From a virus, in the IMG/VR virus record IMGVR_UViG_3300027899_000001, positions 1-64,000 of that record: DNA of 64,000 bases; one strand, 5' to 3'. This document shows, in pieces, positions 1,959 to 36,642 of the stretch (within the stretch, counting starts at the first letter, position 1; every line of letters starts with the position of its first letter). The position numbers and the translations under genes are program-made. The notes below the pieces were generated by a model, which saw nothing but the letters and a program-made list of their open reading frames with translations, was not told the origin of the DNA and searched no databases.

Positions 1959-3176
1959 ATGGGTAATACAAGAAAAATATCAACTATAGGTGATGTAGAA
2001 ATAGATGCAAGTGGATATCTATTTTTTGATGCAAATACATCTAAATGGTATATTAGATATGATTCTTCTATAAATGTAGATGGACCTACTGGAATTCAAG
2101 GAATTCAAGGAATTGATAATGATGCACAAGGAATAATAGGAAGTCAAGGTGCTCAAGGAAGTCAAGGAATTTTAGGAAGTCAAGGAACAGAAGGTGTTCA
2201 AGGAATTTCAGGAATTCAAGGTACTCAAGGTGCTCAAGGAATTCAAGGTACTCAGGGAACTCAAGGTACACAAGGAACACAAGGTGTTCAAGGAACTCAA
2301 GGTGCTCAAGGAATTCAAGGAACTCAAGGAGCTCAAGGAAATCAAGGAATACAAGGTGCTCAAGGTATTCAAGGAACACAGGGAACACAAGGTGCTCAAG
2401 GAGTTCAAGGTTCTCAAGGAAATCAAGGAATTCAAGGAACACAAGGAACACAAGGAATTCAAGGAACTCAAGGAACTCAAGGAACACAAGGTGTTCAGGG
2501 AATTCAAGGATATCAAGGAGTTCAAGGAGTTCAAGGAACTCAAGGATATCAAGGAGTTCAAGGAATACAAGGCGCTCAAGGAACACAGGGTATTCAAGGA
2601 ATAGCTGGAGTACAAGGACTTGAAAATAGTGACAAAGGATCTCAGGGAACACAAGGAACACAAGGAACACAGGGAGCTCAAGGAACTCAAGGTGCTCAAG
2701 GAACTCAAGGTACTCAAGGAATACAAGGACTTCAAGGAATACAGGGTCAAACAGGAATACAAGGTGCTCAAGGACGTCAAGGAACTCAAGGAACTTCTGG
2801 TTCTGATATACGTCTTAAAAAGAATATACGACCTTTTTTAGAGGGTATTCAAACTGTTATGAAAATAAATCCTGTTATTTATCAATGGAATGGTTTAGCA
2901 GGACATGAATATGAAAATGAAGATATTGTTGGTATTATAGGTAATGAAATTGAAACTATATTACCGTATTCTGTTAAAAGAGCAACAGGAAAATTAGAAA
3001 TTGATGGACCAGATTCTGAAGTTATTGAGTTTAATATTGATTCAGTAGTTTTTACACTTGTTAATTCTGTAAAAGAATTAAAACTTAAACTTGAAAAACT
3101 TAAAGAAAAAACTGATAGTTTGACATTGAAAAATATTCAAAGTATTCAAAGTATTCAAAATATAAACTATTTTTAA
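1959..3176 (+). CDS. Collagen-like tail fibre with C-terminal S74 chaperone domain (paralog 1)
   Basis: A 405-residue protein. An N-terminal head of about 45 residues ([14 protein letters not shown]...WY) is shared with the next two genes. A Gly-X-Gln collagen-like shaft follows to about residue 281, then an intramolecular chaperone starting [12 protein letters not shown]. In S74 peptidases the Ser (here S282) and the Lys five residues later (K287) form the self-cleavage dyad, and both are present; cleavage is expected just before S282. The C-terminus ([17 protein letters not shown]) is a coiled coil, as usual after S74 domains. The protein should trimerise, fold and release its chaperone. 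It lies in tandem with its paralogs, 24 bp after the previous gene. Sequence evidence is strong for the domains; the fibre role is inferred. Confidence 0.88.
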
Positions 3177-3178
3177 TT

Positions 3179-4363
3179 ATGGGAAATACAAGAAAATTAG
3201 GAGATGTTGGTGATGTAAAAATAGATATAAGTAGTTTTTTATATTTTGATGTAGATGTTTCTATTTGGTATAATTTATATGATGTTTCATTAGCAGCAAA
3301 GCTTCAAGGTATTCAAGGTATTCAAGGAATACAGGGAACACAAGGAACACAAGGTGCTCAAGGAAAAGAAGGAGAACAGGGAGAAGAAGGTATAGATGGA
3401 ATTCAAGGAGCTCAAGGTATACAAGGAACTCAAGGTGCACAAGGTACTCAAGGAATTTTAGGAGATGAAGGCATTCAAGGTACTCAAGGTACTCAAGGTA
3501 CTCAAGGTGCTCAGGGTGTTCAAGGTGTACAAGGTTCTCAAGGTTCTCAAGGAATTCAAGGTTCTCAAGGAATTTCAGGTATACAAGGAACTCAAGGAAC
3601 TCAGGGTTCACAAGGTATTCAAGGTCTTCAAGGAATTTTAGGAATTCAAGGTTCTCAAGGAATAATAGGTGTTCAAGGAATTCAAGGAATTTTAGGTGTT
3701 CAAGGTGTTCAAGGAACTCAAGGTGCTCAAGGAATTCAAGGTGTTCAAGGAATTCAAGGAACACAAGGATCTCAAGGTGCTCAAGGAATTTCAGGTATAC
3801 AAGGTGCTCAAGGAACTCAAGGTGCTCAAGGAACTCAAGGTGCTCAAGGAACTCAAGGTGCTCAAGGAACACAAGGAACACAAGGAACACAAGGTGCTCA
3901 AGGAACTCAGGGAACTCAAGGAACACAAGGAACACAAGGTGCTCAAGGAATACAGGGAAGACAAGGTACTCAAGGTGTACAAGGAATTCAAGGAATTCAA
4001 GGAATTCAAGGAAGAACAGGATCTTCTGATATACGTCTAAAGAAAAATATACGTCCTTTTTTAGAAGGAGTTCAAACTGTTACAAAAATAAATCCTGTAA
4101 TTTATCAATGGAATGGTTTAGGAGAATATCCACATGAAAATGAAGATATTATTGGTATAATTGGTAATGAACTTGAAAGATTTATGCCTTATGCTATTAA
4201 AAGAAGAACTGGAAAATTGGAAATAGACGGGCCAGATTCTGAAATTATGCAATTTGATATATCTCCCATAGTTTTTTCTCTTGTTAATGCAGTAAAAGAA
4301 TTAGAAGGAGAAATTATTTATATGGAACACTTGGTTCAAACATTAAATGGATCGATAAATTAA
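3179..4363 (+). CDS. Collagen-like tail fibre with C-terminal S74 chaperone domain (paralog 2)
   Basis: A 394-residue paralog starting 2 bp after the previous stop. It has the same head ([14 protein letters not shown]), a Gly-X-Gln shaft with a short Glu-rich break ([13 protein letters not shown], about residues 61-73), and an S74 domain whose Ser is residue 283 with Lys at 288. The chaperone domain is close to identical to that of the two neighbours ([21 protein letters not shown]), while the shaft repeats are arranged differently. This suggests recombination or slippage within the shaft and constraint on both ends. The three genes probably supply alternative or co-assembling fibres. The family assignment is secure; the receptor or sugar bound is unknown. 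Confidence 0.88.
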
Positions 4364-4375
4364 ATATATGATATA

Positions 4376-5590
4376 ATGTACAATACTACAAAAATAGGAT
4401 TAATTGGTGATACAAATGTAGATGTAAGTGGATGTTTATATTTTAATGCTGAAGCTTCTATTTGGTATATAGTATATGATGCTTCTTTACCACAAGGAAC
4501 ACAAGGTATTCAAGGAGCTCAAGGATTTTATGGAACACAAGGAACACAAGGAACACAAGGAACACAAGGAACACAAGGTACTCAAGGAACACAAGGTGCT
4601 CAAGGTGCTCAAGGTGCTCAAGGTATTCAAGGTGAACAAGGTATACAAGGTACTCAAGGAACACAAGGTGCTCAAGGTGCTCAAGGAACTCAAGGTACTC
4701 AAGGTGCTCAAGGTGCTCAAGGTATAATAGGTTATCAAGGAATTCAAGGTATTCAAGGAATTCAAGGTATTCAAGGAATTCAAGGTACACAAGGAACTCA
4801 AGGAAGACAAGGTACACAAGGAACTCAGGGAAATACTAATACAATTCAAGGTGCTCAAGGAATTCAAGGAACACAAGGTCGTCAAGGAATTCAAGGTACT
4901 CAAGGTACTCAAGGTACTCAAGGTGCTCAAAGTGCTCAAGGAACACAAGGTCGTCAAGGAATTCAAGGAACTCAAGGTACTCAAGGTGCTCAAGGTGCTC
5001 AAGGAACACAAGGAGCGCAAGGATATCAAGGAATTCAAGGAACACAAGGAACACAAGGAACACAAGGAACACAAGGAACACAAGGAACACAAGGTACTCA
5101 AGGAGATCAAGGAGAAGAAGGAACACAAGGAACACAAGGAACACAAGGAATTCAATCACCTCAAGGAGTTGTAGGAAGTCAAGGTCGTCAAGGAATTCAA
5201 GGAAGAAGAGGTGCATCAGCATCAGATATACGTTTAAAGAAAAATATACGTCCTTTTTTAGAAGGCGTTCAAACTGTTACAAAAATAAATCCTGTTATTT
5301 ATCAATGGGTAGGATTATGGAATTATCCACATGAAAATGAAGATATTGTTGGTATTATAGGTAATGAACTTGAAAAATTTATGCCTTATGCTATTAAAAG
5401 AAGACCTGTAAATTTACAAAATGATGTACCAGATTCACAGGTTATTGAATTTAATCTTGAACCTGTAATTTATACTCTTGTTAATGCAATAAAAGAATTA
5501 AACATAGAAAAAGATAATATCAAAAAACAAATTAAAATGTTGATAAATATACAAAGAAATAAAGAATTGCAAGGAATACAAGGAATTTAA
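4376..5590 (+). CDS. Collagen-like tail fibre with C-terminal S74 chaperone domain (paralog 3)
   Basis: A 404-residue third paralog. The head is GDTNVDVSGCLYFN, the shaft is Gly-X-Gln with some charged triplets (GDQGEEG), and the S74 domain starts at S283 with Lys at 288. After the chaperone and its coiled coil the protein ends with LQGIQGI, a stub of collagen repeat placed beyond the chaperone, which the other two copies lack. This stub may be a trace of unequal recombination with the shaft. The ATG at 4376 follows the previous stop by 12 bp. The pre-cleavage shaft length (282 residues) matches its two neighbours. Confidence 0.88.
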   Translation: MYNTTKIGLIGDTNVDVSGCLYFNAEASIWYIVYDASLPQGTQGIQGAQGFYGTQGTQGTQGTQGTQGTQGTQGAQGAQGAQGIQGEQGIQGTQGTQGAQGAQGTQGTQGAQGAQGIIGYQGIQGIQGIQGIQGIQGTQGTQGRQGTQGTQGNTNTIQGAQGIQGTQGRQGIQGTQGTQGTQGAQSAQGTQGRQGIQGTQGTQGAQGAQGTQGAQGYQGIQGTQGTQGTQGTQGTQGTQGTQGDQGEEGTQGTQGTQGIQSPQGVVGSQGRQGIQGRRGASASDIRLKKNIRPFLEGVQTVTKINPVIYQWVGLWNYPHENEDIVGIIGNELEKFMPYAIKRRPVNLQNDVPDSQVIEFNLEPVIYTLVNAIKELNIEKDNIKKQIKMLINIQRNKELQGIQGI

Positions 5591-5610: not shown

Positions 5611-5841
5611 ATGATTGATTTAAAACGTTATTATCGATTAAAACCACAAGGTTTATGTTGGGTAGAAAAATATAAAGAAGATTACGTTGTATTATTTAAA
5701 AGATTTGATAATGAAAACGGAAAAGAACTTACACATGAACCTAATTATGTTACTATAGAAAATCTTGAAAAAGATAAACAAGAACTTACAATACAATTAG
5801 AAGCATTAAATTCTATTTTAGAAGATATTAAGAAATTATAA
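5611..5841 (+). CDS. Small coiled-coil protein of unknown function
   Basis: A 76-residue protein, not recognised. The N-terminal half is basic and aromatic (MIDLKRYYRLKPQGLCWVEKY). The C-terminal third (LEKDKQELTIQLEALNSILEDIKKL) is a clear amphipathic coiled coil. Its stop codon overlaps the start of the next gene (TAATG), which indicates translational coupling. Its place after the fibre genes suggests a fibre-associated accessory protein, but this is only positional inference. Confidence 0.7.
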   Translation: MIDLKRYYRLKPQGLCWVEKYKEDYVVLFKRFDNENGKELTHEPNYVTIENLEKDKQELTIQLEALNSILEDIKKL

Positions 5842-6323
5842 TGGCAATACCAAGATTAAATATATCATGTGCTTCAACTAATCTAAATAGTATGCCGTAT
5901 ACTTTATGGGGAAATATATATTATCCTCAAAATGGTGTTAGTTTTCGTACGCTATTTAACACAAGAAATGTTAGTACAGGACGATGTGATGTAAGTACAA
6001 TGGGTGGATTAACTGTTAGTTTTTCTACGAATCCTACTGGAACAATGCATTGGAATCAAAATAATTTTAATCCTCAAACAGTTACTGTAACTGCAAATTG
6101 TGCATGGACACCAGTTTTAACAGCAGAAAATCCATCAGGATCTTTTACAATAAATAATGTAACAGGAACAGCACAATTAGGAGGTAATTACGTAGGAGGT
6201 AACGGAAGTTTTCAGCCTAGACATATGGCAAATGGAAACGGAAGCACAGGAACAATTACTATTTATTATTCTAATGGATCTGGCGGAATATCCACACAAA
6301 CTATATTATTAGCTGTACCGTAA
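5841..6323 (+). CDS. Beta-rich hypothetical protein, probable virion component
   Basis: A 160-residue protein rich in Asn, Thr, Ser and Gly with alternating hydrophobic residues, typical of an all-beta fold. It has no recognised motif and no signal peptide. Three Cys are present, including one near the N-terminus (NISCAS). It is translationally coupled to the small upstream gene through a TAATG overlap. Its position between the fibre genes and the modification enzymes suggests a fibre-tip or decoration protein; function unknown. Confidence 0.65.
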   Translation: MAIPRLNISCASTNLNSMPYTLWGNIYYPQNGVSFRTLFNTRNVSTGRCDVSTMGGLTVSFSTNPTGTMHWNQNNFNPQTVTVTANCAWTPVLTAENPSGSFTINNVTGTAQLGGNYVGGNGSFQPRHMANGNGSTGTITIYYSNGSGGISTQTILLAVP

Positions 6324-6387: not shown

Positions 6388-9054
6388 ATGAATAGAAACC
6401 TATGTAAAAAAGTTCTATCAGAGGGTGGAAAACTTATACCATTAATCATACCTAGTTCATCTTCTAAAGGACTTGGATTAATGAATCCATCAATACTTTT
6501 AGATACAACAAAAATTTTACTTAATCTCAGAAATATAAATTATACTCTTTATCATTCTGAGAACAAACAAGTGTTTAACAACAGATTCGGACCATTAGTA
6601 TATCTAAATCCTGAAAATGATCTTCATTTAAGAACATTTAATTTTTATTGTGAACTTGATACAGAAAAATTAAATATAGTTAAACATTATCCTATTGATA
6701 CATCAACGTTTGATAAAGAACCTCTTTGGGAATTTGTAGGATTAGAAGATGCGCGTTATGTAAGATGGGATGGAAAACTTTTTGCTTGTGGTGTAAGAAG
6801 AGATACTACTACTAATGGACAAGGCCGTATGGAATTATCAGAATTAATTGAAAAAAACGAATCTGAATTAAAACCAGGAGAAAGTCCTATTAAAGAAATA
6901 AATAGATTTCGTATTGAGCCGCCAGGGCCTTCTACATATTGCGAAAAAAATTGGATGCCTATATTAGATATGCCTTATCATTTTGTTAAATGGTGTAATC
7001 CTACTCAAGTTGTTAAAGTTAATACAAAAACTCTTACATCTGAAACTGTATTTTTAAGTAATAGTCATATACCAAATATTCCTGATTTTAGAGGAAGTTC
7101 CCAAGTAATAAACTATAAAGATTATAGAATGTGTCTTATTCATGAAGTTAATCTTTTTAATAATAAGCTTCAGCAAAAAGATGCAACGTATATGCATCGA
7201 TTTGTAGTATGGGATAAAAATTGGAACATTGTTAAAATATCAGAACCATTTTCATTTATGGATGGTGAAATTGAATTTTGTTGCGGCATGGCTTTATATA
7301 AAAAAGATTTATTAATATCTTTTGGATTTCAAGATAATGCTGCATATATATTAAAAGTTCCAGAAAATATTATTGATGAAATTATTGGATTTAAACAATC
7401 AGATTTTGATTGGGGTTTAATAGAAAAAAATCCTTGGTTTAAATCTGTTCTTATAGATGAAATTTTTATAAATGATGATTATCAAAAGTTTTTTAAAGTT
7501 GAAAAAGATGACGTTGTTGTAGATGTAGGTGCAAGTGTTGGGCCATTTACATATAATATTTTAAATAAAAAACCTAAACGTGTATTTTGTTTAGAACCTT
7601 CGAGAGAATTATTTCCAACTTTATTAAAAAATGCTAAAGATCATTCAATCATATGTATAAATAAAGGAATATCAAATGAAGATGATATAGATACATTAGA
7701 TGGTGTGTATAATTCTGAATCAAATGAAATGTTTAATTCTTCATATTATGCAGATACTATTAAATTTAAAACCTTTATAAATAAATATAATATCTCAAAA
7801 ATAGATTTTCTTAAAACTGATTGTGAAGGAGGAGAATACGATATATTTAATGATGAAAATTTTGATTGGATTAAATCAAATGTTAAAAAAATAGCAGGTG
7901 AATTTCATTTATCAAATTTTAAATATAAAGAAAAATTTAAAAAATTCAGAGAGACATATTTAAAAACATTTACAAATGCTAAAATATATTCTATGGATGG
8001 AATAGATATTAAATGGGATTTATGGAGTGATCATTTTTTAGAATTTTATGGACAAATACTTGTGTATATTGATAATACAATTCCTTCAATTGAAATTAAA
8101 AAAGAAGAAATACCAGTTATTAAAAAAATTGAACCAGTTTCTCCAATTGTAAAAAAAGATAAAAAGAAAAAAAACTATTGGAAAACTGCAAAATGGGCTA
8201 CATTTGAAATAACTACAAATATCCTTTCAAAAGGATGTATAATGAATTGTGTATTTTGTCCTCAAAAAACATTATTAAGTAAATATAAAGGGGAAAGAAT
8301 GTTATCATATGATAATTTTGTAAAAATACTAGATAAAATTCCTAAAGATATTGCCATTATATTTTCAGGTTTTTCTGAACCTTGGTTAAATAAGAAATGC
8401 ACAGATATGCTTTTATATGCTCATAAAAAAGGCCATCAAATATCATTGTTTACAACAGGAATAGGTATGGAGATAGAAGATTTTGAGAAAATAAAACATA
8501 TACCATTTGCATCAGGCCCAAAAGAACCTCAAGTAGGATATCTGGGATTTCCTATTAATAATGGGGGATTTACTCTACATCTTCCTGATAATGAATTATA
8601 TGCTAAACATCCTATTACAGAAAAATATATTAAATTACTAAATCATATTAAAGAACACGAGAATGAAATAGCCAATTTTACTCTAACATGTATGGGTACT
8701 GTGCATGATAAAGTAAAAGATATATTTCCGACAGCATATAAAACAGATATATGGTCTCGTGGAGAAAATGTAGTAAAAGAAAAAACTTTTCGTCCTGAGA
8801 TAGTATCTGTAATAGATGGAAATTTTAAATCAGGATATCAATGGGAAGAACCTGCAACATGTAGATGTGATGAACATCTTTATCATAATGTGTTACTTCC
8901 TAATGGAGATGTTGTATTATGCTGTATGGATTATAGTTTAGAACATGTTCTCGGAAATTTATATACTCAAGAATATGATGAAATACTTCCTGCACCCAAT
9001 ACTACTTTTGATTTATGTAAATTGTGTGAAAATGGATTACCACTTAAAAAATAA
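6388..9054 (+). CDS. Three-domain protein: beta-propeller (GH130-like), FkbM-type methyltransferase, radical SAM
   Basis: An 888-residue fusion. Residues ~1-340 look like a five-bladed propeller of the GH130/GH43 type (GLEDARYVRWDGKLFACG near 119, RGSSQV near 236, then FCCGMAL...LLISFGFQDN). Residues ~345-560 carry SAM-methyltransferase motifs: VVVDVGASVG at about 376 and KTDCEGGEYD at about 477, the second typical of FkbM enzymes. A Lys/Pro-rich linker leads to a radical-SAM domain with CxxxCxxC at C617, C621 and C624, and a SPASM-like Cys-rich tail (CRC near 825, LCC, then CKLC near 877). The parts suggest sugar recognition or cleavage, O-methylation and a radical reaction on one chain. Substrate unknown; virion glycan or host surface polysaccharide modification is inference. 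Domain calls rest on motifs read by eye; the radical-SAM and FkbM parts are firm, the propeller less so. Confidence 0.8.
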   Translation: MNRNLCKKVLSEGGKLIPLIIPSSSSKGLGLMNPSILLDTTKILLNLRNINYTLYHSENKQVFNNRFGPLVYLNPENDLHLRTFNFYCELDTEKLNIVKHYPIDTSTFDKEPLWEFVGLEDARYVRWDGKLFACGVRRDTTTNGQGRMELSELIEKNESELKPGESPIKEINRFRIEPPGPSTYCEKNWMPILDMPYHFVKWCNPTQVVKVNTKTLTSETVFLSNSHIPNIPDFRGSSQVINYKDYRMCLIHEVNLFNNKLQQKDATYMHRFVVWDKNWNIVKISEPFSFMDGEIEFCCGMALYKKDLLISFGFQDNAAYILKVPENIIDEIIGFKQSDFDWGLIEKNPWFKSVLIDEIFINDDYQKFFKVEKDDVVVDVGASVGPFTYNILNKKPKRVFCLEPSRELFPTLLKNAKDHSIICINKGISNEDDIDTLDGVYNSESNEMFNSSYYADTIKFKTFINKYNISKIDFLKTDCEGGEYDIFNDENFDWIKSNVKKIAGEFHLSNFKYKEKFKKFRETYLKTFTNAKIYSMDGIDIKWDLWSDHFLEFYGQILVYIDNTIPSIEIKKEEIPVIKKIEPVSPIVKKDKKKKNYWKTAKWATFEITTNILSKGCIMNCVFCPQKTLLSKYKGERMLSYDNFVKILDKIPKDIAIIFSGFSEPWLNKKCTDMLLYAHKKGHQISLFTTGIGMEIEDFEKIKHIPFASGPKEPQVGYLGFPINNGGFTLHLPDNELYAKHPITEKYIKLLNHIKEHENEIANFTLTCMGTVHDKVKDIFPTAYKTDIWSRGENVVKEKTFRPEIVSVIDGNFKSGYQWEEPATCRCDEHLYHNVLLPNGDVVLCCMDYSLEHVLGNLYTQEYDEILPAPNTTFDLCKLCENGLPLKK

Positions 9055-9060
9055 AAATTT

Positions 9061-10296
9061 ATGCTACCAAACTTAGATTCAGCTTTATCAAATTATATAT
9101 CAGACCCAAAAAATCCTGATTATAATTTTATACTTGGACAAATTTATGAAAATATGGGACATACTGCTGCAGCAGCGTCTTTTTATATAAGAACTACAGA
9201 ATTTGGAATAGAAGATTTATTATCATATGAAGCTTTATTACGATTAGCTTTATGTTTTGATAGACAAGGATCAAGAGTATTTACAGTGAAGGGTATTCTT
9301 CTACGTGCAGTTGCTTTAATTCCTACTAGACCCGAAGCATATTTTTTATTAAGTAGAATATATGAAAATTCTAGAGATTGGCAAGAGTGTTATGCTATTG
9401 CCAGTATTGCAGAACAAATGATTAAAGACCCTGATGTATTATTACAGACTAATGTTGAGTATCCTGGAAGATATGGAGTAACTTTTGAAAAAGCAGTAGC
9501 TGCATGGTGGATAGGATTATATGATGAATCTATACATATATTTAAAGAATTAGAAAAAAGATCAGATATTCAAGAAATTCATAGAATAGTATCTCGTAAT
9601 AATATAATAAATCTTGCAGGTAATTTATGGAAAAATCCTATAACATATTTTAATTATCTTTATGAACATTTACGAGTTAAATTTCCAGGAGCAGAATATA
9701 TTTCACAAAATTATTCTCAATGTTATCAAGATATGTTTGTTTTAACGATGTTAAATGGAAAAAGAGAAGGAAAATTTTTAGAAGTTGGATGTGCTGGACC
9801 TTATTTTGGAAACAATACAGCATTATTAGAAAAATCTTTTGCGTGGACAGGAATTTCCATTGATATAGATCAAAATTCTATAAACGAATTTTCATCAGAA
9901 CGAATTAGTAAAGCTATTTGTGCTGATGCTACAAAAGTAGATTATTCAAATTTATTAGAAGGAGATTATGATTATTTACAATTAGATTGCGATCCTCCTT
10001 TAATAACATATCAAACTTTATTAAAAATACCATTTGAGCAACATAGATTTGCTGTTATAACATTTGAACATGATCATTATGCAGATGAAAATAGTAAAAT
10101 TCGTGATAAATCAAGAAAATATTTAGAATCTCATGGATATGAATTAGTTGTAGCAAACATAGCGCCTGATTTATATTCTCCATATGAAGATTGGTGGGTT
10201 CATCCTGATCTAGTTGATAGATATATAATAAATATAATGAAAGATGTTTCTGATGCTCCAAAACGATCAGATAATTATATGTTAAAAAGAAAATAG
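9061..10296 (+). CDS. TPR-like protein fused to SAM-dependent methyltransferase
   Basis: A 411-residue protein. The first ~150 residues are helical repeats of TPR type (NYNFILGQIYENMGHTAAAA, EAYFLLSRIYENSRDWQECY). The C-terminal part is a Rossmann methyltransferase: KFLEVGCAGP near residue 238 is motif I, GISIDID gives the acidic SAM-binding residue, and DYLQLDCDPP near 304 is motif IV. It starts 6 bp after the radical-SAM fusion and is almost certainly cotranscribed with it, so both may act on the same glycan or protein. TPR-methyltransferase fusions near structural genes are known in large phages. Substrate unknown. Confidence 0.8.
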   Translation: MLPNLDSALSNYISDPKNPDYNFILGQIYENMGHTAAAASFYIRTTEFGIEDLLSYEALLRLALCFDRQGSRVFTVKGILLRAVALIPTRPEAYFLLSRIYENSRDWQECYAIASIAEQMIKDPDVLLQTNVEYPGRYGVTFEKAVAAWWIGLYDESIHIFKELEKRSDIQEIHRIVSRNNIINLAGNLWKNPITYFNYLYEHLRVKFPGAEYISQNYSQCYQDMFVLTMLNGKREGKFLEVGCAGPYFGNNTALLEKSFAWTGISIDIDQNSINEFSSERISKAICADATKVDYSNLLEGDYDYLQLDCDPPLITYQTLLKIPFEQHRFAVITFEHDHYADENSKIRDKSRKYLESHGYELVVANIAPDLYSPYEDWWVHPDLVDRYIINIMKDVSDAPKRSDNYMLKRK

Positions 10297-10591: not shown

Positions 10592-13500
10592 ATGAAATCT
10601 ATAAAAAGATTAATTTTAACAATAATTTTAACCTTTGTATTAGGAGTACAATTACTTATGGCAATATTAACAGTAACAGGACAAACAATTATTAATTCCG
10701 ATACAACATGGAACGGATATTATGTTGATCGTTATGAACCTATGACTTTCACGTTTAGTAATAATTCTATAACATCTCAAAATTATTCTAATTACATGCT
10801 TCAGGCGGGAGATGAAGATATTCAACCAACTAATAATAATCTTGCGGGAGAAGTAATAACTGGTAATAGGTTAACATGGAACGGAACCGATATGACAAGT
10901 ATTTGTCATGGAGTATTTACAGGATGTAATATCAACGTTGTAATTAAATATAATTATCTTGAAAAAGTTCCTATGGGTCTTATACGCAAATCAGCAAGTA
11001 ATATGGTTAATACTTCTGGCGGCGTTGCATATAATATACTTAATAAAACATTCATAGGAACAGTAGTTAAAGGCATATCTAATGTTAATATCTATAATAA
11101 TACTTATTATTCAGATCGTACTTTTGCTAATACTCAATACGGAAGAGCATTAATAGATGTTTATACAAATACAGATCTTGTTCCTAATTCTGTAGCACAT
11201 AATACTAAGATTAAGAATAATATATTTTATACTAAATATCAAATAAATAATATACGTGTACTTGATAATGAAAGTTTAATTGGATTTGAATCTGATTATA
11301 ATTTATTTTATTGTGAATCAGGAACTCCTATGTTTGAAATATCAGGAACACAAATAACTTTTGCACAGTGGCAGGCATTAGGATATGATACTCATTCTGT
11401 AGTAGTTAATCCCAATTTTATAGACTTTGTTAATTTTGTTCCAACTACTAGACTAAATTATGGAACTAATTTAGGTTCTACTTGGCAAACTGGCTTATCT
11501 ACTTCAGCTGTTTGGATAGTTGGTTCTACTCCTACTACAAGTGATCAAAATGGTACTTGGCAGGTTGGTGCAAGAGTTTATGCTTCTTCAGCAACTGCAC
11601 CTACAGTAACAACTACTGCTGTCACATCTATAACTAGTACTACTGCTATTAGTGGTGGAAATGTGACTAGTGATGGTGGATCTGCAGTGACTGCCCGTGG
11701 CGTTTGTTGGAACACAAGCACTAATCCCACTATTGCTAATTCAAAAACTAGTAACGGAACTGGAACAGGATCTTATAGCAGTTCATTGACAGGATTATCA
11801 AATGGCGTAACGTATTACGTAAGAGCTTATGCTACTAATTCAGTGGGAACTGCATATGGTAGTAATGTATCATTTGTAGCTGAAAATGCTGTGGCTGGAA
11901 CTTATTATGTATCAACTACTGGTAACGATGCAAATTCAGGCACAATAAGTCAACCCTTTTTTACATTAAATAAAGCATGGACAGTAATTGGCCCAGGCGA
12001 TATTGTTTATGTGAGAGGTGGAACTTACCAATATTTAACATCGCAAGAATGTGTTGGTAAAAATGGAACTGCAGGAAATCTTATAAAAATTTGGGCTTAT
12101 CCGGGAGAGACACCTGTAATAACAAAAGCAGTGGGGTGGACGTATACTCATAGAGCAGGCATTTATTTTGTAGGTAGTTATTTCCATTGGAAAGGAATTG
12201 AAGTTAGTGGATTTACACAGATAGACGATAATGAATACGCAGGTTTTAATGTAGATGATGGTACAAATCATAACATATTTGAACTTCTTAATATTCACCA
12301 TAATGGTGGAAGTAATAGATTGATAAATCAAGACTGTGATGATAATTTGGTGTTAAATTGTGACTTTCATCATAATTACGATCCTCTTACTACTGTTCCT
12401 AGCGCTTATGGAAATGCAGATGGTATGGCAGCAAATCCTAGAGCTGGAACTACTAACACTATAAGAGGTTGTAGATTTTGGTCTAATTGCGATGATGGAT
12501 TGGATTTATATGGAGCGAACGGATTAGTGATTGTTGACAAATGCTGGGCGTGGAGTAACGGTTACAGAGAAGACGGTGTTACAAAAGGAGGTGATGGTAA
12601 CGGTATTAAATTAGGAGGCACCACCGGAGATTATTCTACAACTCATTTACGAACCGTCACCAATTCTTTAGCTTTTCATAATAGAAATGCTGGATTTACA
12701 CAGAACGTAGCGCGATGCATATCTCACATTTATAACAATACAGCCTATCACAATGCTGATGGTGCTGATGTATATAATTTAGGATTTGAATTTGAAGAAA
12801 CTTCTATCGTACATATTTTAAGAAATAATGTAGCTCATGCGAACCAACATCCTACAAATTTACAAGCAAATTACGGTAACTGTATTACATCAAATAATAC
12901 ATGGAATGGTCTTGTTACAGTCACTGATGCTGATTTTACAACTATTAGCTCTACAGGAGTTGATGGAAGCAGACAGTCAGATGGAAATTTACCAGCACTG
13001 TCATTCTTGCATTTGATAACAGGATCTGATTTAATTGCAGCAGGTACAAATGTAGGATTAATAACAGATGGAGATGGTGTTGCTTGGAATAATCCACCAT
13101 CAATGGGTGCATATGAGTATGTAAGTGGAAGTGTAGTAATACCTACAGTAACAACTACTGCTGTCACATCTATAACTAGTACTACTGCTATTAGTGGTGG
13201 AAATGTGACTAGTGATGGTGGATCTGCAGTGACTGCCCGTGGCGTTTGTTGGAACACAAGCACTAATCCCACTATTGCTAATTCAAAAACTAGTAACGGA
13301 ACTGGAACAGGTTCATATGTTAGTTCATTGACAGGGTTGTCTAATGGTGTGACGTACTATGTCAGAGCTTATGCTACTAATTCAGTGGGAACTACATATG
13401 GTAGTAATGTATCATTTGTAGCTGCAAATTCTGCTCCAGGAACTTATTATGTTAAAAACGGTGGTAATAATAATTTAGATGGATTATCAGATGCTACAGC

Positions 13501-16500
13501 ATGGGAAACAATAGATAAAGTTAATTCAACTATTACAGGAGGAAATACTGTTTTATTTAAGCGTGGTAGCACATGGCGTAATCAACAAATAAGACCTGTT
13601 GCTGGTTCAGCAGGAGCTTACACGACTTATGGAGCATATGGAACTGGAGCAAAACCAAAAATTTTAGGTTCTTTAACTGCAAATTCAGGATGGACTAATG
13701 TTAGTGGTAATATATGGCAAACTACCGGATGGACAAAAGATGTGGGAAATATCATTTTTAACAATGAACAAAGCTGTGGTCGTAAATTCATGACTGCTAC
13801 ACCTACACTTACTACTCAGGGGGATTTTTGGTACGATTACGTGAATGACAGAGTACGAATGTATTCTGTAGGAAATCCTGCATCTTATTATACTAATATT
13901 GAATTTGCTTTAAGTCAAGATGCTGTTGTTACAAGTTATAATGCTCCATATATAATCATTGAAGATTTAGACTTCCGTTACTGGGGAAATTGTGTTATAC
14001 AGAATGCTCGTAATTATAGTATTTATCGTAGATTAGATATAAGTTACATAGGTGGTGGAGATGCAGGAGAAACGCAAGGCGCTGCCTGGTATGATACACG
14101 ATGGGGTAATGGAATTCAGATGTGGGAAGGCGACGGATCTTATATTACAGTAGAAAGTTGTAAAATTGATCAAGTTTATGATGCTGGTATTTCACCTCAA
14201 GGCCAAGCGGGTTCTTGGACTATGCATGATATTTTTATAAGAAATAACATTGTAACTAATTGCGAGTATAATTTTGAATTTTGGTTAAGGGCTGGAGCCA
14301 CAGCTTACAATATCTATGTTGAACATAATGTATTTGCTTATGCTGGATATGGGTTTGCACATAATCAACGTCCAGATGCAATTCAAGGGCATAATTTGCA
14401 GATGGGAGGCATGCAAGCTACCAGAAATAATATTTATTTACGTAATAATATTTTTTATATGTCTTTGAATTATAATTATAGTGCATGGTGGTATAATCCT
14501 GGGCCAGGAACAACTCCTCCGGGTCCAAGTACTTATGATGATCTATATAATATCACATTTGATTATAATTTATATTACACTCCGGGCGTATATATAGGTT
14601 TTTTTGATGCACTTCCTACTATATTTAATACATTTGCACAATGGCAAGCAGCTTTTCAAGTAGATGAATCACACGGAAAGGGTGTTGATCCATTATTCGT
14701 TGATCCAGCAAATGGAGATTTTCATTTACAACCGGGTTCTCCTGCCATTGCAGCCGGATTAGCAGTAGCAGGAGTAACAACAGATTTTGATGGAGTTTCT
14801 TATGCAAGTACTCCATCAATGGGAGCGTTGGAATATGTTAGTCCTACTAATAATACTTATTATGTAAAAAATGGAGGAAATGATAATTTAAATGGATTAT
14901 CTGATTCTACAGCATGGGAAACTATATCTAAAGTAAATTCATTTATTAAAGGTGGTGATAAGGTTTTATTCAAACGCGATAGTGTTTGGCGTAATGAAGC
15001 TATATCTGTTGTTAATGGTTCAGCTGGAGCTTATACCACTTATGGAGCATATGGAACTGGGGCAAAACCTCGTATATTAGGCTCTGTTCAATTAAACTCT
15101 GGATGGACAAATGTAAGTGGTAATATATGGCAAAATAGTAATGCTGCTGTGTTAGCTAAACAAGTAGGAAATCTTATTTTTAATAATGAACAAAGTGTAG
15201 GTGTAAAAGTTGCCTCTGAAGCATTATTAAACGCACAGGGCAGATTTTATTGGAATTTTAGTACAGGTGTATTAAGAATGTACTCTGTAGGCAATCCTGC
15301 TCTTTATTACTCTAACATTGAAGCAGCTTTACAACAACAGACGGCTGATGTGTACGGACATTCATATATTAAGTTTGAAAATCTTGATTTTAGATATAGC
15401 GGTGAAGGGACTATTTTTGGGGATAGTAATTATATACAAGTGTATGATTGCAATATAAGCTATAACGGAGGAGCTTATACAGATGTAGGAGGGGGCACAA
15501 GAATAGGAGGAGGAATTGGTACATGGGATAATGCATCATATTGGGAAATATTAAGATGTAGGATTAGTAACGAATATGATGCAGGAATAACCATGCAAGG
15601 GACTGGTGTTACATTAATTCATGATATGATAATAAGAAATAATATTATTGAAAAATGTGAATATAATTTTGAATTTTGGGAAAGACCCAATACTGGACAA
15701 ATGTATAATATATGGTTTGAACACAATACGTTAGCATATGCAGGATATGGTTGGTCTCACACTCAACGTCCAGATTCTCAACAAGGGCATAGCATATATA
15801 TGGGAGGAATGTCAGTTCAAAGACATGACATATACATAAGAAATAATATTTTTTATTCAAGTATCAATGATAATATAGCGTTCTCTTATTACAATGATGG
15901 TTCTTATGATGATTTAATAAATATCACCTTTGATTATAATTTATATTACAATCCTGGAGTTAATACTGCTTTTGCAGATGCTCATGATATCATTTTTCTT
16001 ACATTTGCAAATTGGCAAGCAGCTGTAAGTGTAGATGAATCGCATGGAATAGGAACTAATCCTTTATTTGTTAATGCTGCTGGAGGTGATTATCATCTAA
16101 GTATAGGTTCGCCCGCTATTGCAGCTGGATTAGCAGTAACAGGAGTAACTACTGATTTTGATGGAGTTTCTTACAACTCTTCACCTGCAATGGGCGCATA
16201 TGAATATGTTCCAGGATCTTCTAACATATATTACATAGATCCAACTGGCGCAGATTCTGCAGGAAGAAATGGATCAAATGTAGCAGGACAACAATGGCTT
16301 ACACTTGCATATGCTATAAGTCGTGTTACTACAGGCGATACTATTCATGTTAATCCGGGAACATATAATATAAGTTCGCAAATTACTGTTCCTATTGGAA
16401 TAAGTATAGAAGGAGATGGAATTACTTCAATTTTACGTTCTACATATACAAGTGGTCCTACATTAAATTTAGCTAATTCAGTATTGGGAAGTGGAAATCA

Positions 16501-19500
16501 ATATATAGCTAATATTAAAATGGATGGTGTTTCTACTACCGCGCATACTGCTGTAAATGTATATAGAAGATCAAATGTATCAATATATAATTGTACATTT
16601 GTAGATTTTTTACAATGGGGTGTAAGATATAGAGGGCAAGATGCTGGTGAAGTAGAACCTACTTTGTGGGCAACTGGTAATTCATTTCATGATAATTCTG
16701 TTAATAATTGCTCTATGTATTATTATCCAGGTGGAGATGCTGATGTTGATAAACGAAACGGAAATGGACAAGGTCTTTTAGAAATAAGTGAACAACAAGG
16801 AATGAGAGTATATAATAATACTCTTATACAAACAGGTAGAACTACTTGGCATAATGGATACTGTATAAAAGGCATAATGGGTTATAATAAAGATATTAAG
16901 ATTTATAATAATATCATGACTAAAGCTGCATATACAGAAGCATATGGAATAACATGGGATTTTGTTTTAGAATTTTGGGAAAGTCGAGGAGGAATAGAAG
17001 TTTATGGAAATACTATTACTGGTGGATCTCTTGATTTTTCAGGAAGTGGAACTGAAAATGATACTACAACTCAAAAAGGAATATATGATTATGCTGTATG
17101 GATTCATGATAATTCTATAATGAATACTACTTTAAGCGCATACTCTAATACTCATGGAATATTAATAGAACAAAGCGCAACAGATGTAATTATTGAAAGA
17201 AACTGGATAGAAAATGTATGGGCTGGAATTTATTTTCCACTTACACCAAAAAGTAATCCTATGTATGGAACTATATTTAATAACATAACTGTAAGATATA
17301 ATGTAATAAAAAATGTAGGAACATCTGGAAATAATTTACAAGGGTTTGGAATTCATGGGCCTTATGCTGTTACAAATATGACAGGCAATAACATTCAATA
17401 TTATAATAATACTATAATTGGAAGAAGTGGTTCTAATTCATGGGGTATTCAAATTCCTGTATTAGGAACTTTAACAAATGTGTATGTAAGAAATAATATT
17501 GTACAAGGATTCTCAGGTGCTGGAAGTGCTGGTATATATTGCTATAACTATGGTACAGTTAACTATGCTTGGGTGCAATATAATAATTTGTATCAATGCG
17601 CAAATAGTAATGCACCATTATATGGTTTAAGTATATCTAATCTTACATCAGAAAGTGCGTATGCTGGTACAGTTCCTCCATTCGTATCTACTACAGATTA
17701 TCATTTAACTACAAGTAAAGATGGAATATATATAACTTCAGGCTTGACAGATAAAGATGGCGTTACGCCATCAAATCCTCCAGACATAGGAGCATATGAA
17801 TATGCACTAGTAAATGGTGTTTATTATATAGATCCAACTGGCGCAGATTCTGCAGGAAGAAATGGATCAAATGTAGCAGGACAACAATGGCTTACACTTG
17901 CATATGCTATAAGTCGTGTTACTACAGGCGATACTATTCATGTTAATCCGGGAACATATACAGTAACTACTCAAACAAGTGTACCAATAGGCATAAATAT
18001 TGAAGGAAATGGCATAGGTAGTTCTATTATTAGATCGCATTATATAGCAGGTGATGGAAATCTAAATAACGCATGTTTAGTGTTATCTGGAGGAACAAAT
18101 ACTGATCAACATATTAGTGGACTTACATTAGATGGAGATTCTTTATGGGGAGATAACGCTATAGTTGTATATAATAGAAGTAATGTAAGCATTTATAATT
18201 GTCAAGTAGTTAATTTTTTAACTCAAGGAATTAGATTTGATGGAAGTTCTCCAAGTTTAAGTGTAAATAACAGTCTTTATGGTTGCACAATAACTAATTC
18301 TGGCGGTATAGATACATCTGATAGACGAGCTAATATATTTATAAGAAATAATACAAGCCTACGTATTTATAATAATACTCTTAATCAAACTCTTAGAGTT
18401 TCAAATACAGGGTTAGGAATTAGATTAGAAGATGGAGTTTATGGTTGTAAGATATACAATAATTATTTATATGGAATACAACCTGGCGCTGATTGGTCAT
18501 TTACAATGGAATGTTGGTGTGCTGATACTGTTAATGGTGTAGGTTGGGGATTAGAAATATATGGAAATACTATAACAGGATTAATTGACTTTGGTTCTGG
18601 AGTAAGTAAAGGAACAGGTTCTTATACTTATGCTGTAAGTTTTCATGATAATGTAATGGGAACAGATGTTGCTCATGCTGTTACAGATTATCAACACGGT
18701 TTATTATTTGAATTAAATGGAAGCGATATTATTATTTATAATAACGAATTTAAATTTCTTGATCGTCCTATTTATTTTACATCAGGACAATTTAGTAATA
18801 TAGATATACATTCTAATATAATTAGAAATGTTCCAGCCAGTTATTCTGATGGAGCAGGTATTTTATTTATCGGAAGTGGGTCGCCTACATCAGAACAGAA
18901 TGTATATATACGAAATAATACTATTATTGCTCATACTGGTGGAGTAGGACCGGCACAATATGGCATTTTATTTGATGCAAGAGGTACAGTAAATAATTTT
19001 TACATACAAAATAATATTATTCAAGGATTTTCTTCTGCTCCGTATGAAAGTTATGGAACCACAGGATCTATAGGAACTTTGGTTGTTCAAAAAAATGTTC
19101 TTTATCTTAATGGAAATAGTAATAATATTAAATTAACATTAACACCTACATCTCTTACAAATGATTTAGGGCTTAAATATGATCCAGTGTTTGTAAATGC
19201 AGCTGCATATAATTTTCATATACAATCAACATCGCCTGCATTAAGAGCAGGTTTATATGTAGGATTAGTTTTTGATTATGATGATCAGTTTTGGAATAAT
19301 CCACCTTCTATAGGAGCATATGAATATATGGGTGCTCTTCCTTCATCTATTCCATCAGTTACAACTTCTTCTATTACTAATATTCTTGCAACTACTGCTT
19401 CTGGCGGTGGTACTGTAACACATGACGGAAGTTTAGCATTATCTTCTAGAGGTATATGTTGGAATACTTCAACAAATCCAACTGTGTTAAATTCTTCAAC

Positions 19501-22500
19501 AAATAATGGAGTATCAGAAGGGGTATTTACGAGTTCACTTGTAGGATTAAATCCAAGTACTCATTATTATGTTAGAGCATATGCTGCAAATTCATTAGGA
19601 GTAGGATATGGAGCAAATGTTGAATTTGATACTCTAAAAAATACATCAATTCCAATTGTTACTACTACAGCAATTACTGATATAAGTACTTTTACTGCAA
19701 CTGGAGGCGGAAATGTAACTCATGATGGAAGTTTAGCAGTAACTTCAAAGGGTGTTTGTTGGTCTGTTTTACCAAGTCCTACTATTGATAATACATTTAA
19801 TACTAGTGGTACAGGAGAAGGGTCGTATGTTAGTTATTTAACTGGATTAAATGCATCAACACATTATTATGTAAGAGCATACGCTATTAACGCAGAAGGA
19901 GTTGGATATGGATATGATGTTTCATTTAATACATTAGGTTCAGGAATTTCTTTAGTTAATGGACTTATGGGATATTGGAAATTAAATGAAACAACAGGAA
20001 GCGCGTTAGATTCTGTAGGAAGCATAAATGGTGCCGTTTTTGGTGCTACACAAGGAGTTCCTGGTAAAATAAGTACTGCATATCGTTTTAATGCAGCAAC
20101 AAATAGTTATATTGATTTAGGAATTTCTTGTAAACCTACAACTGCAATATCTTTTGCCGTATGGCTTAATCCAAGCACATTTAACGATATTTATTCAGGA
20201 GTAATAAATAATACTACTTGGGTTAATCCGACAGAACAATATGGCTATAATGTATTTCTTGATAGTAGTAAAATGTTATTTGAATTATTTAATGGCGATG
20301 TTCAAAATTCATTATGGAGCAATGCTACAATAACACCAAATACTTGGCATTTTATTGTTGGAACATGGGATGGCGCAAAAATGAAACTTTATATTAATAA
20401 TGTACTTGATGCAAGCCAAGCTAGAACAACTACTATAGGATACGATCTAGCATCTGTTTTAAGATTTGGTTCTCATTCTGCACCATATGATTATACAGGT
20501 GTTATTGATGAAATAGGAATTTGGAATAGAGCTTTGACTATTTCTGAAGTATCTACATTATATAATAGTAGTAACGGATTAACTTATCCATTCGATGCTT
20601 CAACCAATATTAGTATTCCTACTGTTACAACTTCTTCAGTTACAAATATATTTACAACTAGTGCATCTTGTGGTGGTAATGTAACTCATGATGGAAGCAC
20701 TGCAGTAACAGCTAAAGGTGTATGTTGGAATACATCAATAAATCCAACTGTATTAAATTCTTCAACAAATAATGGAACAGGAACAGGAGTATTTACAAGC
20801 GCAATAACAGGATTAAATCCGAGCACACATTATTATGTTAGAGCTTATGCAACTAACGCAGTTGGAACTGCTTATGGTTCTAATGTTCAATTTGATACAT
20901 CTACATCTCCTATAGTAACCTCAATTCCTACCGTTACAACTTCTTCAGTTACAAATATATTTACAACTAGTGCATCTTGTGGTGGTAATGTAACTCATGA
21001 TGGAAGCACAGCAGTAATAGCTAAAGGTGTATGTTGGAGTATTTTATCAAATCCAACTATTAGTAGTGCATTAACTAATGATGGCACCGGTGAGGGATCA
21101 TTTACAAGCGCAATAACAGGATTAAATCCGAGCACACATTATTATGTTAGAGCTTATGCAACTAATGCAGTAGGAACGGGATATGGAAATCAAATTACAT
21201 TTGATAGTAGTATTCCAGTTTCAGTTATTTCAACTTATTACATAAATGCTATAAATGGAAATGATGCTAGTGCAGGAACTACACAAAATACAGCCTGGAA
21301 AACAGTTGCAAAAGTTAATGCATATACATTTATTCCAGGAGATACTGTTTTATTTAGAAGAGGTGATACATGGAATGAAAGATTGGTTGTAGCACAAAGT
21401 GGTATAAGTGGATATCCTATAACATATTCTAATTATGGTGTTGGCGCTAATCCTATATTTAATGCACAAAATATTCGTCCTAATGGAATTAGAATTGAGG
21501 GCGTATCTTATATAATCATTGATGGTATTGATACCATAAATAGTACTGAAGAAGGAATTGTAGTATTTGACTGGAATGAAATAGGATCATCTAATGTAAC
21601 AATTAAAAACCTTACATCTTTTAATAATGTAAAGGCTGGAATTTATATGTCTATACCTTATGGAACAATAATGGATTGTTCTACAATAAATAATGGTCTT
21701 ACTACACAACATCATGGTATATATATGGGAAGATCTTCTATCTTAAATAATATATATGCTGATAATTGGTTAATAGAAAGATGCCATTCATATGGCAATA
21801 CCGGTGCAGGATATCAAATTTATAATAGTGGATCCGGCACACTAAGATATTCTGTAACAAATAATAATGGGGGCACATCTGGTGGATGGGGTGCAGTAAT
21901 TGATACATTAGCTCCTAATAAAAATGTAAATGTTTATTATAATGTTTTATATAACAATGATTATTGGGGATTAGAAGTAGCTAATCTTAATAGTGGTGAT
22001 GCTGTAAACATTTATAATAATGTTATGTATAATAATGGACAAGCAGATTATGGCGCAGGTTTACATGTAGCTAACAATGATAATGTAACTGATGGCTCAA
22101 TTAAAATAAAAAATAATTTAATTTTTTCAAATGTATATTATGATTTTCAACAATCACAAAGTATATCAAAATATACAGTATCTAATAATGATTATTGGAA
22201 ATCCTTTGGAAATATAATTGTATGGAATTCAATTACATATCCACAAACTCAATTTGCATCATATCAAGTTGCATCTGGCGATATATTATCAATATCAAAA
22301 GATCCTTCAGTTGTAAATGCTGCAGCTTATAATTTTAATTTAACTTCTTCATCTTCATGTAAAAATGCAGGAGTAAATGTAGGATTAACTACAGATTTTA
22401 TTGGAACTGGAATAATAAATTTCCCAGATATTGGTGCTTATGAATTTATAGAACTTAATATTTCAACCCCTACTGTTACTACATCTTTAATAACAAATAT

Positions 22501-25500
22501 TGCAATTACTAGTGCATCTTGTGGTGGTAATGTATCTCATGATGGAAGTACAGCAGTTACAGCTAAAGGTATTTGTTGGAATACTTTTTCAAATCCTACA
22601 ATATACGATTCTTCTACAACAAATGATGGAATAGGAGAAGGAATATTTTATAGCGCGCTAACTAACTTAAATCCAAGTACTCATTATTATGTTAGAGCTT
22701 ATGCAACAAATGAAATGGGAACAGCATATGGAAACGAAGTAACTCTTGATACAAGTAAAAATTCATATTATGTAAATATTGTTAATGGAAATGACTTAAA
22801 TAGTGGAACTACAGAAAATACTGCGTGGAAAACTATAACAAGAGTTAACACAGCATTAACAACTCTTCCTGCTGGTTATGCTATACGTTTTAGAAAAGGA
22901 GATACATGGTATGGAACAATAAATATTGGAAAATCCGGAGCTGCTAATTTTCCAATTACTATAGGTTCTTATGGAACTGGCGCTAATCCAGTAATAACTG
23001 GATTTACTACAGCATCCTCATGGACAAATGCAGGAAATGGTATATATTATACGTCTTTAACTGCGGAATCTTCAACGTTAATGGTATCATTAGATGGTTA
23101 TCAAGCACAAATGGGTAAATGGCCTGCAATAGGTTGGAATCATATAGAAAGTACAAATGGAACAAGTACAATAACTGACACAGCTATAACAAGTACTTAT
23201 AACTGGATAGGTGCACAAGTAGTTATAAGAAAAAATCGTTGGGTTATTGATAAATGTATAATAACTAATCAAAGTGGAAATACAATAACATACAATGATC
23301 CAGATGCGGGATCTTATCAAGCAGTAGCAGGATGGGGATATTTTATACAAGCAGATTTAAGTACATTAGTATCTTATGGAAATTGGTATCATGATCATAG
23401 TGCAAATAGATTTTATATGTATTTTGGCGCTGAACTTCCCGCAAATCATGTTGTAAAAATAAGTTCTTTAGATAGATGTATTTATAATAGTAATTATGAT
23501 CATATAACAATTGATGGTCTTACGCTTGAAGGTGCTAACATAGATGGCTACTATGGATATAATAGTGCATCAAATCATATTATTCAAAATTGTAATATTG
23601 GTTTTTCTGGTCGTCATGGAATATATTTACAATATCCATCAAATTGTATTGTACAAAATTGTAGTATTTATAGTTCAAATGATCATGCCGTTTATTCAAC
23701 TTCTCAAGTTGGTGTAAGTGGACCGTTTACTATTAGTAGAAATACTATCACAAATACTTTTATATTTCCTGGAACTACAGATAGCGGTGATAATCATGGA
23801 AATGCATTATATTCTTGTGCAGATAATACATTAATTCAAAATAATAGAATTCTTAATACAGGACATCTTCCAATTAATTGGGGAGGAACTAATTCAATAA
23901 TAAGAAATAATATTATAGATACATTTTGTTTTACAACTGATAATGGTGCGGGTATTTATACTTATGGTGATAGAAATACTGGAAAACAAGTTATTGGTAA
24001 TATAGTATTAAATGCTATTAGTGCTACAGACGGTACCGATATAAATGATCCTTTATATCCTAATACTCATTTTTCTCATGGCTTATATACTGATGGATTT
24101 AGTGCACATGTTTCATTTATAGGAAATACTGTTGGCAATGTAAATGCATTTGGTATTCGTATGAGTGCTAGTACTAATATTGTACTTAAAGATAATACAT
24201 TTTATCAATCTTATGGATTTGTTTCAGTTTTAAGATCTGATACTCTTATAAGAGATATAAGTGTGTATAATAATGTATTTATATCTAATAATTTAGATGA
24301 ACATTCTCCAGAAGGTATTAAATATGAATCTTATTTTACTCCTATTTCTAGTTCAACTGCAACATCTGAAATTCAAGGATGGGGCTATTGGAATAATAAT
24401 TATTATTATACAAATACTGAAACTGCAATGGTAGTATATGGTACAGATACTGGTCAATGTGCTCCAAAAAGTTTAGAAAAATGGAAAACAAAATATAATC
24501 ATGACACAACTTCTGTATTTTATCCTAAGTTTTCAAGCTATACAATAAATTCATCAGGAACGAACATGTTATCTAATTCTAGATTTGATTCAGATATTAA
24601 TAACTGGACAGGAACATCATTAGCTTCAATATCTTGGGTATCTAATTCTAGTCTTGATGGTGGTGCATTGAAACTTAGAACAAATAAAAAAGATTATAAT
24701 TGGAATTGGTGGGATTCTGATGATTATTTCTATTCATCAATTGGCGCAGTGGAAAGTAATAAAACATATATAATTAAGCTTTTAGGAAAATCTGAATTAG
24801 CAAATAAAACTATTTCTGTTCGTATGTATCAAACAAGTACGGGAAATTCTATTCAACAATTTTTTACTTTACCAAGCACAAGTGTCAATAAAGAGATATT
24901 ATTCAAATATCCTCAAACAGATCCTGCTGCTTCATTACGTTTTGCTGGTGGAGACGGTGATGCATCAGTATATTTTGATAATATTTATTGCTATGAAGCA
25001 AGTGTAAATCTTATAGACGTTGCTGCTACTAATTTTCATTTTATTTATAATACATCAGAAAATATAAATAAGACATATAGTTTAAGCGCTCCAATGAATG
25101 ACATAAAAGGTAATTATTATGCTGCTGGAATGTTAGATTTATCTACATGGAATTCATTAGTTCTTTTTGGAACAGGTACTGTTACTGAAGGAAGCACTGC
25201 AATTACATATGTTCCTACTGTTACTACATCTCCAGTTACAAATATATTTTTAACTAGTGCTTCTACTGGAGGTAATGTAACTAATGGTGGCGGATTAACT
25301 GTTACATCAAGAGGCGTATGTTGGAATACATCTATAAATCCAACTATATTAAATTCTTCAACAAATAATGGAACAGGAACCGGAGTATTTACAAGTGCAT
25401 TAAGTAACTTAAATCCAAGTACTCATTATTATGTTAGAGCTTATGCTGAAAATTCACAAGGTATAGGATATGGTTCTAATGTTCAATTTGATACGTCACC

Positions 25501-36594: not shown

Positions 36595-36626
36595 GTGTCT
36601 ATTTGCTAAAACTTTATGTGGGATGA

Positions 36627-36642
36627 GATATATAAAATAAAA
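36627..36642 (+). promoter_or_regulatory. Putative late promoter adjoining HNH gene 3
   Basis: GATATATAAAATAAAA ends at the base before the ATG at 36643. If it is a promoter the mRNA would be almost leaderless; otherwise it may serve mainly as an A-rich start region. The same motif occurs at 39041 and on the minus strand near 60475. Confidence 0.45.

Follow-up and report, generated by a model that had tools for sequence, protein, structure and literature searches.

Phage fibres decide host range, and the collagens of prokaryotes need no hydroxyproline to fold into triple helices; to our knowledge, few of the latter are modified. Here we describe a fusion protein from a jumbo phage with a 405-kb genome, encoded in positions 1 to 64,000 of IMG/VR virus record IMGVR_UViG_3300027899_000001 (this whole stretch is the window), which joins a beta-propeller (PROP), an FkbM methyltransferase and a radical-SAM (rSAM) domain. 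Its probable function is to put unusual sugars on the fibres of the virus that encodes it. More specifically, we put at roughly 55 per cent the probability that the fusion and an adjacent TPR-methyltransferase assemble and tailor glycans carried by the tail fibres of the phage itself, the collagen-like ones in particular. Relatives in many aquatic phages shuffle the same modules, often beside genes for collagen-like fibres.

Several described systems resemble parts of this locus. Mimivirus hydroxylates and glucosylates its own collagen (PMC9546862). Its pathway and the COLGALT/GT25 enzymes are comparable in that a virus encodes enzymes for its own collagen-like proteins and in that GT25 is fused to PROP in some phages, but the phage repeats are almost without Lys and Pro, and the propeller, methylation and radical steps have no counterpart in Mimivirus. 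Bacterial collagens of the BclA type likewise carry Thr-rich, glycosylated repeats (PMC8968730, PMC7157674), and the glycan of B. anthracis BclA includes a methylated deoxysugar (PMC6222408); unlike the phage system, however, these are spore proteins served by other glycosyltransferases and by no fusion of this kind. The host-recognition cluster of pelagimyophages, in the accessible part of its description, resembles these loci in that related regions hold fibres and collagen repeats together with glycosyltransferases and rSAM cassettes, whereas neither the PROP-FkbM-rSAM fusion nor the collagen link is described there (PMC7029224). Searches of the open-access literature turned up neither the fusion nor any phage kit for collagen glycosylation. 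The initial annotation, made from the sequence of the window, knew of no described enzyme with this combination. The fusion is not a one-off enzyme but one of the states that a kit of shuffled modules can take.

A recurrent three-domain fusion

The protein and its parts are laid out as follows.

6388..9054, + strand: PROP-FkbM-rSAM fusion protein, 888 amino acids, a single open reading frame (ORF) from ATG to TAA
6388..7407, + strand: domain 1, residues 1-340, GH130/GT108-like beta-propeller (PROP), by AlphaFold (AF2) model and Foldseek
6739..6756, + strand: GLEDAR motif, residues 118-123, candidate GH130-type EDxR catalytic motif; G[LM]EDxR in 292/295 members
7423..8112, + strand: domain 2, residues 346-575, FkbM family methyltransferase (PF05050, TIGR01444)
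8188..9051, + strand: domain 3, residues 601-888, radical-SAM domain with C-terminal auxiliary-cluster Cys (PF04055, PF13186, invariant Cys)
8236..8259, + strand: CxxxCxxC radical-SAM cluster motif, residues 617-624, in 80/81 rSAM domains of the family
8860..9027, + strand: twitch-like auxiliary [4Fe-4S] Cys set, residues 825/827, 845, 877 and 880, conserved in alignments

The frame is uninterrupted over all 888 residues, which bears out the original proposal of one polypeptide with three parts, FkbM and Radical_SAM being recognized by Pfam and the propeller by its model. The ordered motifs proposed for the three parts are all present as well: GLEDAR (118-123), RGSS (235-238), FCCGMAL (297-303), VVVDVGASVG (376-385), KTDCEGGEYD (476-485) and CxxxCxxC (617-624), most positions of which are invariant across 13 aligned fusions. 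Given that independent contigs share the domain order at about 50 per cent identity and that 16 non-redundant ORFs carry it, the fusion is neither chance nor an assembly artefact; it is real and recurrent in phages. Looking for it in other phages had been suggested with the initial annotation, and homologues do occur in fused form, with related neighbours.

Searches of IMG/VR returned at least hundreds of relatives, and family counts here and below are among the matches listed. Single-domain proteins make up 112 of 156 PROP ORFs (non-redundant at 90 per cent), and the fused forms comprise PROP-FKBM-RSAM (16), PROP-TPR-MT2 (10), PROP-RSAM (5) and PROP-FKBM (5), with PROP-GT25, PROP-GT25-RSAM, PROP-OG and PROP-FKBM-FKBM-RSAM as further arrangements. 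The same modules occur in other ORFs without PROP, as TPR-MT2-FKBM-RSAM, TPR-MT2-OG and GT25-TPR-MT2. Pfam identifies GT25 in one PROP fusion (L162; 27.6 bits against a cut-off of 24) and DUF6445 in L163 (29.7 bits against 24). A conserved HxD and downstream His suggest that DUF6445 is 2-oxoglutarate (2OG)-Fe(II) oxygenase-like; a search for it in the genome of the window phage gave no match, but the control likewise matched nothing. A TPR gene stands immediately 3' of PROP in about 85 per cent of 154 non-redundant loci.

On a quick tree of 105 PROP domains, in which gains are not separable from losses, there are at least 24 changes of architecture and at least 8 for the exact three-part fusion, and this number of changes points to repeated exchange of modules around a common task. 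The three-part fusions are spread over a minimum of two separate clades, both with good support, and among the closest relatives of the window protein are another three-part fusion (L308), a PROP-FKBM protein (L310) and a lone PROP (L035). The fusion is one arrangement of a widespread modular phage kit consisting of propeller, FkbM, rSAM, GT25, DUF6445/2OG-type oxygenase and TPR-methyltransferase. Kit modules are carried by the cultured Synechococcus phage DSL-LC02, where PROP and TPR-FkbM-rSAM are split between genes and three collagen-like genes are also present, and the kit is apparently phage-specific. A bacterial origin of PROP was considered and rejected. Six genome_contigs matches (L089-L094) carry PROP-TPR in metagenome-assembled genomes named Chitinophagaceae, Verrucomicrobia, cyanobacterium, Rhodobacteraceae, Pirellulales and Woesearchaeota, and those with enough sequence (L091-L093) resemble phage contigs mis-binned into such genomes; no cellular PROP family was therefore found at that sensitivity.

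Predicted activities of the three domains

The AlphaFold model of residues 1-340, built from a 37-sequence alignment, has a predicted local distance difference test score (pLDDT) of 87.8. Its best Foldseek matches in the PDB are GH130 mannoside phosphorylases/synthases (E 2e-9) and Leishmania MPT-2 (E 7e-8), with a probability of 1.00, template modelling (TM) scores of about 0.5-0.6 and identities of 10-15 per cent. An earlier fold of the whole protein (888 residues, 13 sequences) reached a mediocre pLDDT of 69, yet it already matched GH130. Structure prediction had been recommended as a check on both the propeller and the cluster site; the model shows the propeller at good confidence, and the cluster-binding Cys are conserved. 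PROP is thus like GH130 mannoside phosphorylases and the GT108 Leishmania MPT in predicted fold, in its best structural matches and in a conserved EDxR-like motif, and unlike them in its low identity, its confinement here to phage-like contigs and its fusion to methyltransferase, rSAM, GT25 or TPR modules. GLEDxR may correspond to the EDPR-type motif that holds the catalytic Asp of the GH130/GT108 enzymes, and it may have the same role.

At the level of sequence the resemblance is faint. Of 33 relatives, 10 match PF04041 (GH130) weakly, at best with E 1.4e-4, and the window PROP alone (residues 1-340) has no Pfam match. A PDB sequence search with the PROP alignment returned chance matches to antibodies and none at sequence level to GH130 entries, and PDB searches with single divergent members gave nothing useful. 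In GenBank, PROP is named 'MGP protein' in PQ898602.1 (L002) and 'beta-mannosyltransferase' in OR032571.1 (L001).

Domain 2 is a clear member of the FkbM O-methyltransferases by hidden Markov model (HMM) score, both in Pfam (PF05050, residues 379-521, 39.4 bits against a cut-off of 22.7) and in NCBIfam (TIGR01444, 61.6 bits against 37.7); it differs from known FkbM enzymes in sitting fused between a propeller and an rSAM domain. Domain 3 matches Radical_SAM (PF04055, residues 612-704, 33.2 bits against 29.5) and SPASM (PF13186, residues 827-869, 29.7 bits against 21.5). Its auxiliary Cys follow the pattern C-x12-G-x4-C ... C-x2-C in alignments (81 family domains), and the protein stops 8 residues past C880. 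The initial annotation had read this tail as SPASM-like. An auxiliary set is indeed present, but a search for the seven-Cys motif of two SPASM auxiliary clusters found one set only (C825/C827-C845-C877xxC880), and to judge by this spacing the tail is probably twitch-like, with a single predicted auxiliary cluster and a SPASM label that counts one cluster too many. BtrN, which we take to have this single-cluster twitch layout, is the sole PDB profile match of the rSAM part, a weak one (E 0.002). Twitch enzymes such as BtrN share the CxxxCxxC motif and one auxiliary Cys set, whereas the rSAM domain here belongs to a large fusion protein. The rSAM-bearing neighbour in OR032571.1 is labelled just 'FkbM family methyltransferase' in GenBank, its rSAM part being without annotation.

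It could be supposed that the propeller is a non-catalytic module binding carbohydrate or fibre, and that methylation and radical chemistry act on the fibre polypeptide itself. The very low identity to GH130 would fit such a role, TPR and propeller can each act as docking parts, and peptide modification is common among radical-SAM enzymes with auxiliary clusters. The polar or charged motifs GLEDxR, GVRRD, CEKNW and EFxxG, however, are almost invariant, each being kept in at least 290 of 295 PROP relatives, as in an active site; the GT25 fusions point to sugars; and BtrN, the weak profile match of the rSAM part, acts on a cyclitol. We regard this explanation as decidedly unlikely.

Association with collagen-like fibres

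The genes around the fusion are the following.

1959..3176, + strand: collagen-like fibre 1, 74 counted G-X-Y triplets (PF01391, E 7e-37), S74 chaperone C-terminus (PF13884)
3179..4363, + strand: collagen-like fibre 2, 80 counted triplets, S74
4376..5590, + strand: collagen-like fibre 3, 77 counted triplets, S74
5841..6323, + strand: 160-residue protein between the fibres and the fusion enzyme, with no Pfam or PHROG match
9061..10296, + strand: TPR repeats (Pfam) and a second, FkbM-like methyltransferase by motif (TPR-MT2), 411 residues
10302..10547, + strand: small Cys-rich protein after TPR-MT2, 81 residues, with a BLAST match in the near relative L035 and no confident family
10592-27163, + strand: 5,523-residue ORF with Pel9A-like beta-helix and laminin-G, downstream of the TPR-methyltransferase, probably a giant adhesin or fibre

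The fibre triplets of the window are mainly GTQ, GIQ and GAQ, and the MT2 part of TPR-MT2 is a putative methyltransferase, recognized by motif without an HMM match. More collagen-like genes (PF01391) lie in the phage genome at about 102278, 213985-217866, 389471 and 401342-404941, including frames of 1,728 and 1,758 residues, and there are 86 collagen matches across the genome.

A collagen-like (Gly-X-Y) ORF is present in 44 of 80 PROP loci and in 2 of 140 control loci (p 1e-21, the loci being partly redundant). The controls were thymidylate synthase loci in relatives of the window phage (1 of 60 with collagen) and NrdB loci of T4-like phages (1 of 80). By contig, Pfam collagen occurs in 16 of 22 PROP contigs and 2 of 21 thymidylate-synthase contigs; the sole PROP-bearing thymidylate-synthase (ThyA) contig is one of those two, and the contig-level comparison stands at 17/23 against 1/20 (p 5e-6). 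Four relatives of 299-365 kb have neither PROP nor collagen. The association also holds in reverse: a scan by the exact (GTQ)4 DNA pattern, without selection on PROP, found PROP in 12 of 86 non-redundant collagen loci and GT25 in 7 of 86, each against 0 of 140 controls (p 6e-6 for PROP). This rate is preferred to one of 51/78 near collagen genes, which was discounted because the query belonged to a phage that itself carries PROP and the PROP ORFs recovered collapse to 18 lineages. The link between PROP and collagen is real and far from one-to-one.

Where collagen is missing, the 5' neighbours of PROP include S74 fibres, YadA, CBM, laminin-G and RCC1 adhesins and 2OG oxygenases. Such loci also have two tryptophan halogenases and two sulfotransferases upstream of PROP, which hint at more tailoring of fibres or glycans. 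Genes of these two kinds would also suit a pathway that makes a diffusible small molecule, or one that modifies capsid or sheath, with the fibre gene order a coincidence, but the fibre and adhesin context is consistent across several clades and missing in the controls, and we consider such a pathway highly improbable.

Several observations weigh against a fibre-glycan role. A marine clade with PROP-TPR has collagen in 7 of 77 loci only and adjoins other tail fibres, so that collagen is not an obligatory partner of PROP, and in the unselected sample the majority of collagen loci have no PROP within the fragment. The homology case for a PROP activity is weak, given the PDB and Pfam results above, and no particular reaction can be assigned to the rSAM domain. 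In addition, the same enzyme types would serve modification of host O-antigen, and it is here that the main rival arises, namely an enzyme that alters glycans on the surface of the infected host (O-antigen, capsule or S-layer) and so blocks superinfection by other phages, its fibre neighbourhood reflecting a hypervariable host-recognition island. Lipopolysaccharide loci typically contain FkbM, GT25 and deoxysugar genes, and the accessible part of the pelagimyophage study reports glycosyltransferases and radical-SAM cassettes in host-recognition clusters and reads the glycosyltransferases as modifying the O-chain (PMC7029224). The enrichment beside collagen-like fibres is nonetheless specific and seen in both test directions, the PROP-TPR operon is tight and adjoins fibre genes, and the jumbo relatives without PROP are also without collagen. 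We treat modification of host glycans as unlikely, if still the most serious competitor of a fibre-glycan role.

Repeat chemistry and a proposed pathway

Among 2,934 triplets, X is Thr in 41 per cent, Ala in 18 per cent and Ser in 13 per cent, and Y is Gln in 58 per cent and Thr in 31 per cent; Pro accounts for 1.4 per cent of X, and Lys is outside the ten commonest. Classical collagen chemistry was considered for these repeats and rejected; because Pro and Lys are nearly absent, formation of hydroxyproline or hydroxylysine is unlikely. By analogy with collagens of the BclA type, O-glycosylation of Thr and Ser would probably be the natural alternative (PMC8968730).

About 276-298 kb of the same 405-kb genome, or 281000-300000 (L088), outside the window: deoxysugar/glycosyltransferase cluster

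This cluster encodes a GDP-mannose 4,6-dehydratase (E 4e-128) and an NDP-hexose 2,3-dehydratase (E 2e-131), together with a C-methyltransferase, a DegT aminotransferase, an RmlD-like reductase, FucT, FkbM, a second lone rSAM protein and three GT25 proteins. Since these deoxysugar and GT25 genes stand in its own genome, the window phage can probably make its own unusual deoxysugars.

A glycan role on the fibres is supported by the predicted fold, the fusions with GT25, FkbM, rSAM and DUF6445, the TPR partner, the collagen enrichment and the deoxysugar cluster. The initial annotation had proposed a dedicated glycan or fibre modification pathway from the neighbourhood; the context it relied on is upheld and extended, and the fibre is the putative substrate, with a host glycan as the alternative. 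We infer every enzymatic step, its substrate and the order of the steps from what is observed directly, namely sequence, predicted fold, motifs, fusions, gene order, collagen enrichment and the presence of the cluster in the genome. The enzymes would act on the fibres during virion assembly. The GH130/GT108-like propeller may add or build a mannose-type sugar, either from GDP-mannose (as in GT108) or from mannose-1-phosphate (as in GH130 synthases); the FkbM domain would O-methylate this sugar, and the twitch-type radical-SAM domain would oxidize, epimerize or deoxygenate one of its carbons, while the TPR part of the partner might dock the fibre or hold the enzymes together. The attachment sites would probably be Thr and Ser of the GTQ, GTT and GSQ collagen-like repeats, O-linked, and the glycans would make the triple helix more stable and better hydrated or would change adhesion. 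If this is correct, many aquatic phages carry heavily decorated fibres, by way of recurrent module fusions beside collagen-like fibre genes.

A bolder version would have the locus be a phage collagen-maturation system without hydroxyproline, in which the rSAM domain acts directly on the Gly-Thr-Gln repeats or on the sugars attached to them. We think this quite unlikely; were it true, virion collagen would be radical-modified, methylated and glycosylated.

Elsewhere in the window, HNH/NUMOD endonucleases at 29035-29772 and 36616-37356, near terminase and tail-sheath genes, are probable homing endonucleases, and a DUF2201/VWA protein at 47164-49200 (- strand) combines a putative metallopeptidase domain with VWA.
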